Notes under the pieces: model-generated
Databases searched by the model: none
What the model was told of the DNA's origin: nothing
What the model saw: the letters and a program-made list of their open reading frames with translations, nothing else
NCBI RefSeq assembly: GCF_036967205.1
Contig: NZ_CP146022.1
Location: forward strand, 3,534,001-3,598,000
From: Streptomyces sp. Q6
Lineage (GTDB): Bacteria > Actinomycetota > Actinomycetes > Streptomycetales > Streptomycetaceae
DNA length: 64,000 bases
Direction: 5' to 3'
Program-made: the position numbers and the translations under genes
Shown here: in pieces, positions 1,492-35,804 of the stretch
Layout: the number at the start of each line of letters is the position of its first letter
Position numbering within the stretch: the stretch's first letter is position 1

Positions 1492-5391
<3,900 letters not shown>

Positions 5392-30648: not shown

Positions 30649-30867
30649 TCAGAACAGCGGCATCTGGCCCGGGACGTGCGGGACCACGTATCCGTCGAGG
30701 GCGTCCTGCACGGCCCCCAGCTGGGCCTGTCGGCGGGAGCCGGGGCAGGAGACGAGTTCGCCCGCCGCGCGGGCGCCGGGTGGGTCGTGGCGGGCGAAGC
30801 GGCCTGCGACGACGGCGATCTCGCGACGGCACTCGGGGCAGTTTCGGCGGCGGGACGTGGTCGACAT
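30649..30867 (-). CDS. Small zinc-ribbon-like protein, last gene of the RiPP-type operon
   Basis: A 72-residue basic protein starting at ATG 30867 (MSTTSRRRNCPECRREIAVV). It has one CxxC knuckle and GRFARHDPPGARAAGELVSC with a further His and Cys, so a small zinc-binding fold is likely. It starts 4 bp after the MFS stop and is therefore translated in the same unit. Similar short proteins are common in streptomycetes without known function, so membership in the peptide pathway is only positional. Confidence 0.6.
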   Translation of the reverse strand: MSTTSRRRNCPECRREIAVVAGRFARHDPPGARAAGELVSCPGSRRQAQLGAVQDALDGYVVPHVPGQMPLF

Positions 30868-30871
30868 GGGT

Positions 30872-32170
30872 TCAGTCTGCGTCGTGATCGGCACGGGCAC
30901 ACGGTGAAACCCCCTCAGGAACGGTCCCGAGGGGGTTCCTTGTGACCTGGTCGCCGGTCCGCGTCGGCGACCAGAGCGTGGCCGCCGACAGAAGTGCGAT
31001 CGACGCGGCGCCGAGCAGGACGGGGACGCTCCCGAGGCAGGCGGCCAGCGCGCCGCCGACGAGCGCGCCGACCGGCACCGTCGCCAAGAGCACGGACTGC
31101 ACGAGCCCGGCGACGCGTCCCTGGAGGTCCTCCGGGGTGACCAGTTGCTGCGTGGTCGTCATGGAGACCATCCACACGGTGCCGGTCAGGCCGTACGCGA
31201 CCTGATAGGCGAGCAACAGCGCGAAGCCGGTCCCTACGGAGGCGGCCGGGATCAGGAACACCGTGGCGCCCGCCGCGACGCCGCAGACCTGGGTGGCCCG
31301 CCACAGGCCCGCGGTGCGCGCGAACCGCCCGGCGAGCAGCGCGCCCGCGATCGTGGCCGCGCTGTAGGCCGCATATGTAGTGCCCAACTGCCACGCGGGA
31401 AGCGACAGTTCCTCGGTCGCGTAGAAGACGTAGAGCGCGGCGGCGGCGCCGCTGCCGAGGTTGAGGCCGGCGCCGGACAGGATCATGCGGCGCAGCTGCG
31501 GGTGGGACCTGACGACGGCGAGGCCCGAGCGCAGGGCGTCCAGGGGGGCGCGCACGCCCGCTGGTATGCGGACGTTCAGAGTGGCCGGCAGGGCGAGGAC
31601 GAACAGCGCCTCCACGGCGTACGCGGCGCTGCCCGCGAGCAGGGCCGGAGCGGGTCCGACGAGCCCTACCAGGACGCCGCCGAGCGCGGGGCCGCCGATC
31701 TGCCCGCTGGTACGGGCGGCGGTCAGCGCGGAGTTGGCGCCCAGGAGGCGGTCGGGTGCGACGACGCGGGGCAGTGCCGCCTGGAGGGCGACCGAGAGCG
31801 TGAAGGTGAGGGCGCCGGACACACCGGCGACGGCGTACAGGTGCGGCCGCGCGAGATGCCCGGCCGCGTACGCGAGCGGTACGGAGCCGACGACCAGGGC
31901 CTGCGCGGCCGTGACCGTGACGAGCAGCGCGCGCAGCCGCACCCGGTCGACGAGGACGCCGGCCAGCGGGCTGAGCACCGCGCCGGGCAGATAGGTCAGG
32001 CCGAGCAGCGCGGCCGCCCCGAACGGTCCAGCGCCGAGCCCGGTGACGGCGAGGAGCGCGAGCGCCAGGGTGGTGATCTGGCGCCCCAGGGAGCTGGCGG
32101 TCTGCTCGCCGCAGAGCAGCACGAACGGGCGGTGCCGCCACAAGGGAGCGGCGGCCGCGGCCGAGGTCAC
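30872..32170 (-). CDS. MFS transporter, probable exporter of the RiPP-type operon
   Basis: A 432-residue 12-TM protein of the EntS/MFS_3 type. It has PLAGVLVDRVRLRALLVTVT (motif A) after TM2, RTSGQIGGPALGGVLVGLVG in TM5-6, and a short hydrophilic C-terminus. The ATG 32170 begins 3 bp after the stop of the DUF5825-type gene, which ties the transporter to the peptide-modification genes; export of the modified peptide is the natural reading. A 9-bp hairpin (30908-30937, AACCCCCTC/GAGGGGGTT) lies inside its last codons and could reduce expression of the downstream small gene. Confidence 0.85.
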   Translation of the reverse strand: MTSAAAAAPLWRHRPFVLLCGEQTASSLGRQITTLALALLAVTGLGAGPFGAAALLGLTYLPGAVLSPLAGVLVDRVRLRALLVTVTAAQALVVGSVPLAYAAGHLARPHLYAVAGVSGALTFTLSVALQAALPRVVAPDRLLGANSALTAARTSGQIGGPALGGVLVGLVGPAPALLAGSAAYAVEALFVLALPATLNVRIPAGVRAPLDALRSGLAVVRSHPQLRRMILSGAGLNLGSGAAAALYVFYATEELSLPAWQLGTTYAAYSAATIAGALLAGRFARTAGLWRATQVCGVAAGATVFLIPAASVGTGFALLLAYQVAYGLTGTVWMVSMTTTQQLVTPEDLQGRVAGLVQSVLLATVPVGALVGGALAACLGSVPVLLGAASIALLSAATLWSPTRTGDQVTRNPLGTVPEGVSPCARADHDAD

Positions 32171-32173
32171 CCG

Positions 32174-32845
32174 TCAGATCCCCGTGCAGGGGACGGGCCA
32201 GCGGCGCAGGCGCGGCGGCAGCGCCACCGTCCAGCCGTCGACGGCCAGCGCGAGCCGTTCCTCGGCGAGCAGCCCGGCGGCCTCCCGGTGCACCGGGCTG
32301 AGCGCGTCGAGCGGCGTGGCCTCCTGGAGCACGTCGAACGCGGCGAGCAGGTCGGGGTGGTCGAGCGTGAACCGGGCCGAGGCGGGGCGTTCCCTGCGGT
32401 CCATGACGGTGACGAAGCCGGGGCCGCGGCGGTGGTAGAGCATCCCGTAGACGTGATCGGCACGCCAGGTGCTCAGCTCGGCCGGTTCCTCCGGGCGTTC
32501 GGTCGGCGGGGGCAGATGGCGCAGGATGCGGAGGTCATACGTAACACGCGTATCACGCACGTCGGCCGGAGGCTGGGCCTGCGACTGCGACTGCGACTGC
32601 GACTGCGACTGCGACTGCGACTGGACGTCATACGTGACACGCAGTCCGTGGCCCAGGCACTCGCGCAGGAACTGGACCGCCTGGGTGATGGCGCGCCCGT
32701 CCCCGCTTCCGTCCCCGTCCCCGTACAGGGGCAGGGGTTCGGTCACCTGGACCTCTCCGCCGACGAGGCGATGGGCGACGGCGGTCGGTCTGCCGGCCGA
32801 ACCGAACGGGAGGCTCGGCAGGTTCGGAAGGGTTGAGGCGGTCAT
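32174..32845 (-). CDS. DUF5825-like partner of the radical SAM enzyme
   Basis: A 223-residue soluble protein, start ATG 32845 behind GAGGTGGTG; its ATGA overlaps the radical SAM stop, so translation is coupled. I recognise it as the DUF5825 type that accompanies RiPP-maturation radical SAM enzymes in streptomycetes. Visible landmarks are LPLYGDGDGSGDGRAITQAV, LRILRHLPPPTERPEEPAEL and HVYGMLYHRRGPGFVTVMDR. The middle carries a Gln-Ser repeat of seven CTGCGA units (32579-32620), flanked by near-identical copies of RVTYD. The role is unknown; it may bind the precursor peptide. Confidence 0.75.
   Translation of the reverse strand: MTASTLPNLPSLPFGSAGRPTAVAHRLVGGEVQVTEPLPLYGDGDGSGDGRAITQAVQFLRECLGHGLRVTYDVQSQSQSQSQSQSQSQAQPPADVRDTRVTYDLRILRHLPPPTERPEEPAELSTWRADHVYGMLYHRRGPGFVTVMDRRERPASARFTLDHPDLLAAFDVLQEATPLDALSPVHREAAGLLAEERLALAVDGWTVALPPRLRRWPVPCTGI
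32534..32641. repeat. Hexanucleotide repeat flanked by 15-bp direct repeats
   Basis: CTGCGA is repeated seven times without error at 32579-32620, encoding (Gln-Ser)n on the minus strand. It is bracketed by GTCATACGTAACACG (32534-32548) and GTCATACGTGACACG (32627-32641). The 93-bp spacing is a multiple of three, so the reading frame is kept. Confidence 0.85.
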
Positions 32846-34725
32846 CCGGACACCACCTCGCGGTCGATACGGAGGGGGGCGGTCCGGGTCGGCAGGGAGA
32901 CATAGGTGCGGCCGTCGCGGAACAGCAGACCCAGGGCGACGGCGTCGGTGAGCCACTCCCCCAGATCCTCGGCATTCAGGTCGTGTGCCTCGGCGGTGAG
33001 CCGCTTATGAAGAGCGGGGAGTGTTCGCCCCTCCTCCAAGTGGCGCAGAGCCGCCGCCTGCCAGCCGCTGAACCAGTAGGTGCGCTGCGGCCAGCCGTGC
33101 CGCTGGTCGTGGACCAGGAGGGTGTCGCCGTCGTCGCCGGGTGTCTCCATGAGGAGCGTCGAGTTCGCGTGCCCGGCCCGCCAGTCGGCGACGGCCTGGA
33201 GGAGCCGCTTCTCCGCGTCGCCCGCGATGCCGGCGTCCTCGGTGTCGAACAGGTAGACCATGTCGGCCAGTTCGTCCTCGGGGAGCTCGTAGACGTGCTG
33301 GTACATCTCTGCGGCCCGCCGCTTGCCGAAGCCGAAGCCCGGGTCCGTGAAGTGCGGACTGAACCGCTCCAGTTGGATGCGGTGGGCGCCGCCGGGCGGC
33401 TGGAGGTGGACGAGCGCGGGGAGCTGGTCGAGCACCGGCGCGTAGTCCTCGGCGGTCTCGCCCGGGAAGCCGTACAGGTAGTTCCAGGTACAGGTGATCG
33501 CGTGGTTGTCGAACTCGCGCAGCGTACGGACGTTGCGGGCGCCGCTGACTCCCTTGTCCATGAGGTCGAGGACGCGGTTGCTGAGGCTCTCGATGCCGGG
33601 CTGGATCAGGACGGCGCCGGCCTCGCCGAGCAGGGCGATCTGCTCACGGTTGAGGTTGGACTTCACCTCGTAGTGCATGCGCAGGTCCCAGCCGCTCTCG
33701 ACGGCGCGCGGCAGGAAGTCCTTGAAGTACGCCATGTCGATGATGTTGTCGACGGTGACGATGTCGAGGATGCGGTGGCGGCGCACGAGCCGGTCGATCT
33801 CCTCCCACAGCCGCTCGCCGGGCTTGGCGCGGAAGGCCATGGTGGTGCCGTTGAGCCCGCAGAAGGTGCAGTGGTGCTTCTCGCCCCACCAGCAGCCGCG
33901 CGCACCCTCGACGACCAGCTTCGGGTACACGTACTCGATGACCGGGGAGGCCTCGATCTCCGCCTGCCACTGGTCGTAGTCGGGTGACGGGATGTCGGCG
34001 GGCGCCACGATGCGATGCGCTTCGGCGTTGGCGCGCGACACCTGCGGTGTCGTGGAGGTGTCCCACCAGCACACGCCCGGTACGTCGTCGGGCGGGGTGC
34101 CCGCGTCGAGGTGGGCGAGGAGGGCCGGGAAGGCGTACTCGCCCTCGCCGCGCACGACGTGGTCGACGTAGGGGTGGTTGCGGTGCAGGGCGTGACCCAT
34201 GGGGCCGTCGCAGTTGCTGCCGCCGAAGACGACGGTCAGCCGCGGGCGGCGGCGCTTGAGTTCGCGGGCCAGGGCGAGGGAGGGCACGTTCTGCATGAAC
34301 GTGCTGGTGAAGCCGACAACGTCCGGGTCATGGGCGAGCACCTCGTCGGCGCAGCGCACGATGTACTCGGCGGCGTGGCGGCGCATCTCGAAGACGGTGG
34401 CGAGGGTGTCGGGACACAGGTCATGGGAGCGCGCGTACTCCCTGAGCCGGGCGGCGCCCCACTCCTCGTCCTCGTAGAGCACGCCGGAGAAGACCCAGTC
34501 GCCGAGCCCGTGGAAGATCGAGTCGCTGCCGATGGACTCGTAGTCGCCTGGCCGCAGTCGGCCGCCGGAGCGCTCCAGGAGGAACTCCGCCCAGCGCAGC
34601 GAGCCGTGGAACTCGCGCACCTCGTCGTCCGGGCGGACCTGCCGCAGAAGCTGGTGCAACAGGCCCACCTGGAGGGAGGGCAGATCGATCGGGTGCCAGG
34701 GCATGGTCACCAGCTGAACGCGCAT
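32842..34725 (-). CDS. RiPP-maturation B12-binding radical SAM enzyme
   Basis: A 627-residue protein. The N-terminal third has a B12-binding-like Rossmann fold (DPDVVGFTSTFMQNVPSLAL; LTVVFGGSNCDGPMGHALHR). The radical SAM core follows, with the cluster motif CWWGEKHHCTFCGLNG (C-x7-C-x2-C) near residue 285. VTVDNIIDMAYFKDFLP and WNYLYGFPGETAEDYAPVL are further core strands. A winged-helix-like C-terminal region (DLNAEDLGEWLTDAVALGLL) could read the leader peptide. This matches the ribosomal-peptide maturation radical SAM protein 1 (C-methyltransferase-like) family. The start ATG 34725 follows GAGGG. It is preceded by a 27-codon peptide gene (20-bp gap) and overlaps the DUF5825-type gene. Confidence 0.88.
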   Translation of the reverse strand: MRVQLVTMPWHPIDLPSLQVGLLHQLLRQVRPDDEVREFHGSLRWAEFLLERSGGRLRPGDYESIGSDSIFHGLGDWVFSGVLYEDEEWGAARLREYARSHDLCPDTLATVFEMRRHAAEYIVRCADEVLAHDPDVVGFTSTFMQNVPSLALARELKRRRPRLTVVFGGSNCDGPMGHALHRNHPYVDHVVRGEGEYAFPALLAHLDAGTPPDDVPGVCWWDTSTTPQVSRANAEAHRIVAPADIPSPDYDQWQAEIEASPVIEYVYPKLVVEGARGCWWGEKHHCTFCGLNGTTMAFRAKPGERLWEEIDRLVRRHRILDIVTVDNIIDMAYFKDFLPRAVESGWDLRMHYEVKSNLNREQIALLGEAGAVLIQPGIESLSNRVLDLMDKGVSGARNVRTLREFDNHAITCTWNYLYGFPGETAEDYAPVLDQLPALVHLQPPGGAHRIQLERFSPHFTDPGFGFGKRRAAEMYQHVYELPEDELADMVYLFDTEDAGIAGDAEKRLLQAVADWRAGHANSTLLMETPGDDGDTLLVHDQRHGWPQRTYWFSGWQAAALRHLEEGRTLPALHKRLTAEAHDLNAEDLGEWLTDAVALGLLFRDGRTYVSLPTRTAPLRIDREVVSG

Positions 34726-34745
34726 GCCGCCCTCTTCGTGGTCGT

Positions 34746-34829
34746 TCAGCGGGTGGGCCGCTTCTCCATGACGGCGGGCCTGCGATTCGTGCGTTCTTCC
34801 TCACGGATCACGGTCTTCTTGATCTCCAT
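34746..34829 (-). CDS. Candidate RiPP precursor peptide (27 aa)
   Basis: A short ORF too small for usual gene finders. It runs from ATG 34829 to TGA 34746 and begins MEIKKTVIREEERTNR, followed by RPAVMEKRPTR. The SD is strong (GAGGGGG, 4 nt before ATG), and third-position G+C of about 85 percent fits real coding. It lies 20 bp upstream of the radical SAM gene and about 60 bp below a promoter-like element. It contains 6 Arg, 3 Lys and 5 Glu and has no Cys, Ser, Trp or Phe, so lanthipeptide, sactipeptide or thiazole chemistry is excluded. Methylation or another C-H modification of the Arg/Pro/Val/Met-rich C-terminus is more likely. I know no homologue. Confidence 0.65.
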   Translation of the reverse strand: MEIKKTVIREEERTNRRPAVMEKRPTR

Positions 34830-34885
34830 GACGCCCCCTCAGGCCGCCCCTCGGGCTCGAACACCCGTATGCAATAAGGCGGTTC

Positions 34886-34915
34886 ACCCTAGGCCGAGCC
34901 TCAGGAATCGCACAA
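34886..34915 (-). promoter_or_regulatory. Predicted promoter of the RiPP-type operon
   Basis: TTGTGC (34915-34910) and TAGGGT (34891-34886) are 18 bp apart on the minus strand. The -10 box fits the streptomycete TAGRRT consensus exactly. The leader to the peptide ATG would be about 50 nt. Confidence 0.55.
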
Positions 34916-34995
34916 GGGTGCCCACGACGCGTGGGCCGCACAGCCCCCGGAACCCCCTGGACGCGATCACCGGCCCCCAGGTAGACCCGTACGAC

Positions 34996-35804
34996 ATGAA
35001 CGCGCCTCCGGACACCACGCCCGAGACCGCCGCCCTGCTCGCCCAGGCCCGCCGCCTCCTCGCCGAGCGCCATCCTGACGCCCTCGGTGCCGTGCTCGGC
35101 GGCTCGGCGGCTCGGCGGCACGGGGGCGGGCGACGGCGACCAGCGACCTGGATCTGGCGGTCCTGCTGCCGGACACCGACGTGAGCAGGCGCGAACTGGT
35201 CCGCCACGAGGGCCGGCCCGCAGAACTGTTCCTGCACACGCTCGCCGACCTCCCCGGCTTCTTCGACCGGGACCGTCTTCTGCGCCGCGGCACGCTCCTG
35301 TTCCTCTACGGCGAGGGCGTCCCGCTCCTCGACCCGCACGGCGACCTGGCCCACGCCCGCACCCGGGCCGGCGAAATCCTCGCCGCGGGGCCGCCGCCGC
35401 TGAGCCCGCCGGAACGCGAGCGCGCCCGCTACGTCCTGACCTGCTTCATGGACGACCTGATCGACACCGCGCCCACCACCCGCTCCGACCGCTACGAGCA
35501 ACTCTCCCTGGCCGACTTCACGCTCCGCGCGGCGTCGGACCTGCTGACGGCGCACCACGGCGCTTGGACGGGCATCGGCAGATGGCTGCCCCGCCGCCTC
35601 CTGTCCGCGGACCCCGCCCTGGGCGACGCCCTGCTGGCGGGTCACCTGAAGGTGGCGGAACACGGCGACACGGCCGAACTGACCGCCGCCGCGCGGCAGG
35701 TCCTCGATCTGGTCGGGGGACCGCTGCGCGAGGGCTACGTGCAGCGGCGGGCGCCAGGTGGCCAGGGTGCCTATGAAGAGGCGCGTGGGAAGGCTGGGGC
35801 GTGA
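34996..35804 (+). pseudogene. Nucleotidyltransferase-like gene, frameshifted by an 8-bp tandem duplication
   Basis: From ATG 34996 (MNAPPDTTPETAALLAQARR) the frame runs to LGAVLGGSAARRHGGG and then leaves the family reading, ending at 35184. The correct reading resumes in another frame as RATATSDLDLAVLLPDTDVS and continues to 35804. At about 35098-35113 the 8-bp unit GGCGGCTC occurs twice in tandem. Removing one copy restores GGSAARGRATATSDLDLAV, the full GS-x-DxD motif of the pol-beta-like nucleotidyltransferase fold, in one 266-residue frame. So the gene was broken recently, or it is a reversible slippage switch. It overlaps the APH-type kinase start by 4 bp. Confidence 0.85.

Follow-up and report, generated by a model that had tools for sequence, protein, structure and literature searches.

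A four-gene Streptomyces cassette pairing a 27-residue candidate precursor peptide with a B12 radical SAM enzyme and a DUF5825 protein of the kind found in the clavusporin pathway

B12-binding radical S-adenosylmethionine (SAM) enzymes that methylate unactivated peptide carbons are hard to study. Polytheonamide is made from a long precursor of the proteusin type, whose leader resembles nitrile hydratase, and the clavusporin pathway is reportedly the subject of a paper by Zhang, Li, Overton and Seyedsayamdost in Nat Chem Biol 2025 (10.1038/s41589-025-01882-8). PoyB and PoyC, the C-methylases of polytheonamide biosynthesis, were compared here as the closest known systems. PoyC has Cx7Cx2C as a unique motif and C-beta-methylates Ile3, Val5, 10 and 21 of polytheonamide, according to the available part of PMC11285071. 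In clavusporins the C-methylations are made by a pair consisting of a B12 radical SAM enzyme and a DUF5825 protein, and biphenomycin-like clusters of multinuclear non-heme iron-dependent oxidative enzymes (MNIO), which have YHxYxY precursors, carry a second B12 radical SAM gene together with a DUF5825 gene (both from the available part of PMC12257519). The clavusporin leader is removed by the prolyl oligopeptidase MpcP, and such enzymes generally cut after Pro (PMC12951456, available part). Here we describe a homologous pair in a 64-kb stretch of Streptomyces sp. Q6 (NZ_CP146022.1, positions 3,534,001-3,598,000), hereafter the window, in which all coordinates are given. Its minus strand carries a promoter-like element followed, in this order, by genes for a 27-residue peptide, a B12 radical SAM enzyme, a DUF5825 protein and a major facilitator superfamily (MFS) protein. 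The cassette comprises four genes, not five. It is probable that this cassette (34915-30872) makes a ribosomally synthesized and post-translationally modified peptide (RiPP), whose precursor would be C-methylated by the radical SAM enzyme, cleaved by a protease encoded elsewhere and exported.

A search for related loci kept 80 of 514 candidates. Among them, 37 loci (L032-L068), all from Streptomyces and with best-segment identities of 61-86%, made up the orthologous set, and the next loci dropped to about 50%. An EIKK-type peptide was found 5' of the enzyme gene in 34 of the 37 and in seven of eight further loci from the genus draw. This answered the check proposed in the initial annotation, namely that the peptide should co-occur with the radical SAM/DUF5825 pair. 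The peptide was missing in three loci: L034 and L035, both with a full-length enzyme, and L067, in which the enzyme match was limited to residues 22-526. The peptide set comprised 43 sequences and 31 distinct proteins, from which 41 distinct DNA sequences were counted, L065 being left out. Among these 41, I3, K5, R17 and K-R-P (columns 24-26) were invariant, and E2, K4 and R9 were nearly so. The window and its nearest relative, L032, differed in this gene by six synonymous and no nonsynonymous changes. The ratio of nonsynonymous to synonymous differences (pN/pS) was 0.185 in a close group of seven and 0.63 when all 41 sequences were pooled; the other two frames gave 1.10 and 1.26. The peptide gene claimed by the initial annotation is real and under purifying selection at the protein level. 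The 27-residue peptide had no Pfam or NCBIfam match up to E 1.

The same association was seen at the level of genomes. By tblastn (E up to 0.1), the peptide was detected in 11 of 295 Streptomyces genomes, in ten of them beside an orthologous full-length enzyme gene and in one (G237, L152) beside a remnant matching residues 1-135. The radical SAM orthologue occurred in 15 of the 295 genomes (at least 57% identity, own genome included). Four more of these 15 carried a diverged PEIKK form, and EIKK-type peptides were present in 14 of the 15. The fifteenth, G163, contained at locus L121 an ORF (3702-3959) with an MELKK start followed by AVRVASSP units, three exact and about three near, in front of a 57%-identical radical SAM gene. 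From its sequence this candidate looks like a multi-core precursor. A second draw covered 394 genomes of the class, 11 of which matched the L121 enzyme (E 1e-150); eight of these loci were viewed, of which two had EIKK or ELKK peptides (L160, L162), five had MQKD- or MRKR-type peptides, and the last, L170, was left unassigned. A protein of 234-237 residues with no Pfam match precedes the peptide in L065 (5126-5839) and in Micromonospora loci with MKIKK peptides (L070, 5117-5821).

The product of the radical SAM gene matched TIGR03975, named RiPP maturation radical SAM C-methyltransferase, with 559.5 bits (cut-off 281.85) over positions 1-605 of the 606 in the profile, and it carries the B12 domain PF02310 and the radical SAM domain PF04055. 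Its cluster motif CWWGEKHHCTFC, which had been pointed out from the start, reads Cx7Cx2C, presumably the cluster motif of the TIGR03975 family, and was the same in all 46 aligned relatives. Because Cx7Cx2C is shared with PoyC, Val and Ile would by analogy be the likeliest methylation sites, and the candidates in the window peptide are V7/I8 and V20 (with M21). A profile search of the PDB with the whole enzyme matched five sequences, including TokK, OxsB, CysS and TsrM (E 1e-15 to 0.005). Phage records contained no match to the enzyme at E 1e-20.

The DUF5825 gene overlaps the radical SAM gene in an ATGA, as first annotated. Its product matched PF19142 with 85.9 bits (gathering cut-off 25), over positions 61-176 of the 179 in the profile only, and it was the single DUF5825 match in the genome of the window. 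A mixed alignment of radical SAM and DUF5825 rows, in which the latter seemed to align with the enzyme, was discarded, and a match of an iterated DUF5825 profile to a mid-enzyme stretch (about residues 343-448) was taken as drift and left unused; together they prompted a test of homology. By hhalign, the C-terminal half of DUF5825 aligned with the C-terminal domain of the enzyme over 93 columns (96.1%, E 3.4e-9), and E values were 0.09 or higher for the controls, which were a reversed profile and eight column shuffles. The Pfam models of DUF5825 and PqqD each matched four of 30 enzyme C-termini, with best E values of 1.6e-5 and 0.023, respectively. Judged from these profiles, the C-terminal half of DUF5825 and the C-terminal domain of the enzyme itself are homologous. 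The C-terminal stretch of the enzyme (residues 470-612) was also compared with PqqD, in an alignment of 19 of 23 PqqD places, three having been dropped for odd locus lengths and one not having been entered. The two aligned over 62 columns (85.7%, score 34.9), and the highest score of 40 shuffles was 15.3. Since the enzyme C-terminus is PqqD-like and half of DUF5825 is homologous to it, a RiPP recognition element is probably part of the enzyme, and DUF5825 resembles a diverged duplicate of this domain to which an N-terminal part has been added. This homology gives the partner a testable role, namely peptide binding. In the PDB profile search, the matches of DUF5825 (best E 0.0086) and of the enzyme C-terminus (best E 0.0055) were only marginal, and the chains concerned look unrelated.

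The arrangement of the pair varied among the loci. Enzyme and a shortened DUF5825 were found in one ORF in L043, L044, L049, L059 and L131, L056 has a full enzyme-DUF5825 fusion, the ORF of L062 is frameshifted, and L066 and L067 had no DUF5825 match apart from matches inside the enzyme. Such natural fusions, and the natural losses of the peptide or of most of the enzyme described for other loci, are good material for studying the recognition of leader, partner and core. The window DUF5825 gene contains a Ser-Gln run (about 32570-32640), and relatives have other repeats at roughly this place, such as a VTYDV-like one in L033. The initial annotation's RiPP-type operon was upheld insofar as the short peptide is conserved, is under selection at the protein level and lies beside a B12 radical SAM C-methyltransferase, a DUF5825 gene and, in 20 of 37 loci, an MFS gene.

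The operon had further been extended to a zinc-ribbon protein, the small CxxC protein behind the MFS gene, and this part did not hold. The MFS ORF matched PF07690, and TIGR00900 below its cut-off; its GTG start lies 3 bp after the DUF5825 gene, as annotated. The ryptide export MFS family NF041056, looked for as a mark of ryptide clusters, reached only 26.2 bits against a cut-off of 575. The 4 bp between the MFS stop and the CxxC start were also given correctly. This spacing was misleading, since in its last codons the MFS reading frame of the window passes through a hairpin (-29.9 kcal/mol with 51 nt folded, z -3.5; 3 of 200 shuffles equally good), and the tight spacing is thus an accident. 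The hairpin lies between the MFS stop and the CxxC gene in L032 and L033, and between the DUF5825 stop and the CxxC gene in L034 and L035. Among loci L001-L131, many of them short, the CxxC gene was present only in the window and L032-L035. In the 295 Streptomyces genomes it occurred in 189 (E up to 1e-6), compared with the 15 that have the radical SAM orthologue. In genome G059, the two stretches that match the window, one ending at window position 30924 and the other beginning at 35549 (75% identity in the latter), lie 98 bases apart. This comparison indicated that window positions 30925-35548, including the cassette, are absent at the G059 site, and the CxxC gene stays there. The CxxC protein was therefore ruled out as a fifth pathway gene by its distribution, by the hairpin and by its presence without the cassette.

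On the reading that we favour, the 27-residue peptide would be the precursor, with the conserved half at its N-terminus (EIKKxVxRE) as the leader, bound by the PqqD-like domain of the enzyme and probably also by DUF5825, and the C-terminal part, around AVMEKRPTR, would be the core. With methylcobalamin and a 5'-deoxyadenosyl radical, the enzyme would methylate unactivated carbons, most likely the C-beta of Val or Ile. A protease encoded outside the cassette would then free the core, a candidate being an S9-type homologue (36% identity) of the S. clavuligerus hydrolase, found elsewhere in the genome of the window, and the MFS protein would export the core.

Several observations weigh against this reading or parts of it. 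The pathway had been called self-contained, a claim that we do not retain. The cassette has no protease gene, and no prolyl oligopeptidase was found among its genes or the seven flanking ORFs of the window, two of which lack a family match. The MFS gene is absent from 17 of the 37 orthologous loci; as its orthologue occurs in only 20, MFS export is not a fixed part of the pathway. The hhalign comparison of DUF5825 alone with PqqD was not significant, so that the two are linked only through the enzyme C-terminus. The profiles of EIKK and clavusporin-type precursors gave a non-significant hhalign score of 7.3, the best of 60 column shuffles reaching 11.5, and the idea of a common ancestry of EIKK and MQKD precursors was dropped on this ground. 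Finally, L034 and L035, sister loci of one clade, have both lost the peptide and MFS genes; a search for an EIKK peptide elsewhere gave none (best E 5.96), and no replacement precursor was found. Compared with each other, their radical SAM genes had a dN/dS of 0.196, the lowest of 36 pairs (0.196-0.287), and their DUF5825 genes one of 0.342 (28 pairs, 0.300-0.642; some rows include a few upstream codons). As enzyme and partner are constrained even though the peptide is lost, the pair in these two loci may act on another peptide, or the loss may be too recent to show.

Two further readings were considered. The first, which we put forward tentatively, is that the cassette represents a distinct Streptomyces RiPP family with a very short Arg/Lys/Glu-rich product (about AVMEKRPTR) C-beta-methylated at Val or Ile and a non-surfactant role, as a signal or a peptide with an intracellular target; DUF5825 would be a copy of the peptide-binding domain of the enzyme, and in some lineages the pair would have moved to a substrate in trans. 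The other, which appears rather doubtful, is a plain clavusporin-type pathway with the same chemistry and the same developmental surface-active role, a diverged precursor and an oligopeptidase acting in trans. In favour of it, the window cassette and the clavusporin pathway share the radical SAM family, DUF5825 and an MFS gene, the S9-type homologue noted above could be regarded as such an oligopeptidase, and NRRP before AVM in the window peptide resembles NRKP before SVGITITV in S. clavuligerus. This NR(K/R)P-core border is only a weak hint, because the precursor profiles are not significantly similar, and the subgroups of L055 and L056 lack the border Pro. The two enzyme clades adjoin in a FastTree tree of 114 enzymes, and yet they are separate: 42 EIKK rows and three peptide-less kin formed one clade (support 100), and a 54-row clade (support 99) held 53 clavusporin-like rows, labelled by locus number with precursor and hydrolase not confirmed row by row, and one other. 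The cassette belongs to a clade of its own next to the clavusporin-type pathway, and its precursor is a different one. The MFS proteins of the window type and the clavusporin type were 29% identical over about half their length in the one pair compared, and no oligopeptidase gene accompanies the cassette. The presumed core AVMEKRPTR is strongly charged, unlike the hydrophobic GITITVPF, and this charge speaks against the product being a mere replica of such a hydrophobic surfactant.

It is unlikely that the enzyme performs a chemistry other than C-methylation, such as a C-C cross-link, or methylates a carbon of Arg or Lys. A B12 radical SAM enzyme does cross-link ortho-Tyr in biphenomycin-like peptides, according to the available part of PMC12257519, and the invariant R17 and K-R-P would suit an Arg or Lys target; against this, the window precursor has no aromatic residue for an ortho-Tyr-type cross-link, and the family name and motif of the enzyme indicate C-methylation. 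More improbable still is a purely regulatory role of the short ORF, as a leader peptide or attenuator, with a different target for the enzyme. The peptide-less pairs of L034 and L035 speak for this view, but the 43 sequences are conserved at the amino-acid level, including forms with an added N-terminal extension, the distance between the peptide and enzyme genes varies from 2 to 135 bp, unlike that of an attenuator, and the peptide was never found in the 295 genomes without the enzyme gene or its remnant.

The positions of the features are listed in Table 1. The promoter-like element of the initial annotation was kept in all ten aligned sequences (the window and nine close loci), and the peptide-less L034 and L035 retain it too; a simple consensus promoter scan did not call it. 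The only promoter-like site that the scan called lies within the radical SAM gene, and terminators were not detected.

Table 1. Features of the cassette and its downstream boundary in the window
Feature	Position	Strand	Evidence and remarks
Promoter-like element, TTGTGC-18 nt-TAGGGT	34915-34886	-	Upstream of peptide gene; conserved in alignment
Putative precursor peptide gene, 27 codons, MEIKKTVIREEERTNRRPAVMEKRPTR	34829-34746	-	34/37 orthologous loci; purifying selection
Predicted B12-binding radical SAM C-methyltransferase, 627 residues, Cx7Cx2C	34725-32842	-	TIGR03975, PF02310, PF04055
DUF5825 gene, Ser-Gln run inside	32845-32174	-	PF19142; ATGA overlap with radical SAM gene
MFS transporter ORF (putative exporter), GTG start	32170-30872	-	PF07690; 3 bp after DUF5825
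Hairpin at cassette/CxxC boundary, outside pathway	30906-30939	-	Folding z-score and conservation
Small CxxC protein, common Streptomyces neighbour, outside pathway	30649-30867	-	189/295 genomes

Upstream of the cassette, at about 35000-35804, lies a nucleotidyltransferase-like ORF (named by eye) with an apparent frame change near 35115, and its part downstream of this change had no Pfam match. About 20 of 45 compared loci (L039, L040-L054 and others) are located behind hen1-pnkp RNA-repair genes, and 12 of the 45 lie ahead of genes for an arginine deiminase and a carbamoyltransferase-like protein; the families of these flanks were tested on L039 only. The hen1-pnkp/arginine deiminase flanks are a recurrent site in the genus Streptomyces. 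One EIKK cassette (L173, NZ_CP108366.1) is carried by a 1.7 Mb linear Streptomyces plasmid.

The initial annotation had judged that the combination of peptide and partners matched no RiPP class known to it. This is corrected by the radical SAM/DUF5825 pair, which is that of the clavusporins as described in the available part of PMC12257519. The S. clavuligerus locus L172, which we take from its name and gene content to be the clavusporin locus, contains an MFS gene, an alpha/beta fold hydrolase gene, an unannotated MQKDVIHNDPLAGDEENRKPSVGITITVPFRNAEDADED ORF, a radical SAM gene and a DUF5825 gene. Locus L133 has the same layout, and its hydrolase is a Peptidase_S9. Outside the EIKK set, a pattern search picked out an MQKD/NDP-type ORF in 42 of 64 loci. 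The window cassette shares with this pathway a radical SAM enzyme of the same family (44% identity to that of S. clavuligerus), DUF5825, an MFS gene and, directly ahead of the radical SAM gene, a short ORF. It differs in the place of the MFS gene, which is behind DUF5825 in the window and in front in S. clavuligerus, in having no prolyl oligopeptidase gene in the cluster, and in the precursor, which is EIKK...KRP rather than MQKD..NDP...GITITVPF with its hydrophobic core. PoyC is likewise a B12 radical SAM enzyme with Cx7Cx2C that C-beta-methylates Val and Ile (PMC11285071, available part). The proteusin precursor of polytheonamide is long, whereas that of the window has 27 residues and, by its lack of Pfam and NCBIfam matches, no nitrile-hydratase-like leader. 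The biphenomycin-like MNIO clusters share the B12 radical SAM/DUF5825 pair; the window cassette has no MNIO gene, and its peptide lacks the aromatic motif. We did not find EIKK peptides described in the literature searched on B12 radical SAM/DUF5825 RiPPs, and the original clavusporin paper may mention them. In this clade the presumed substrate has only 27 residues, and 31 distinct natural sequences of the peptide are available. The cassette is thus of a known kind in its radical SAM/DUF5825 pair, that of the clavusporins, and what is new is a cassette without an oligopeptidase and with a different precursor.

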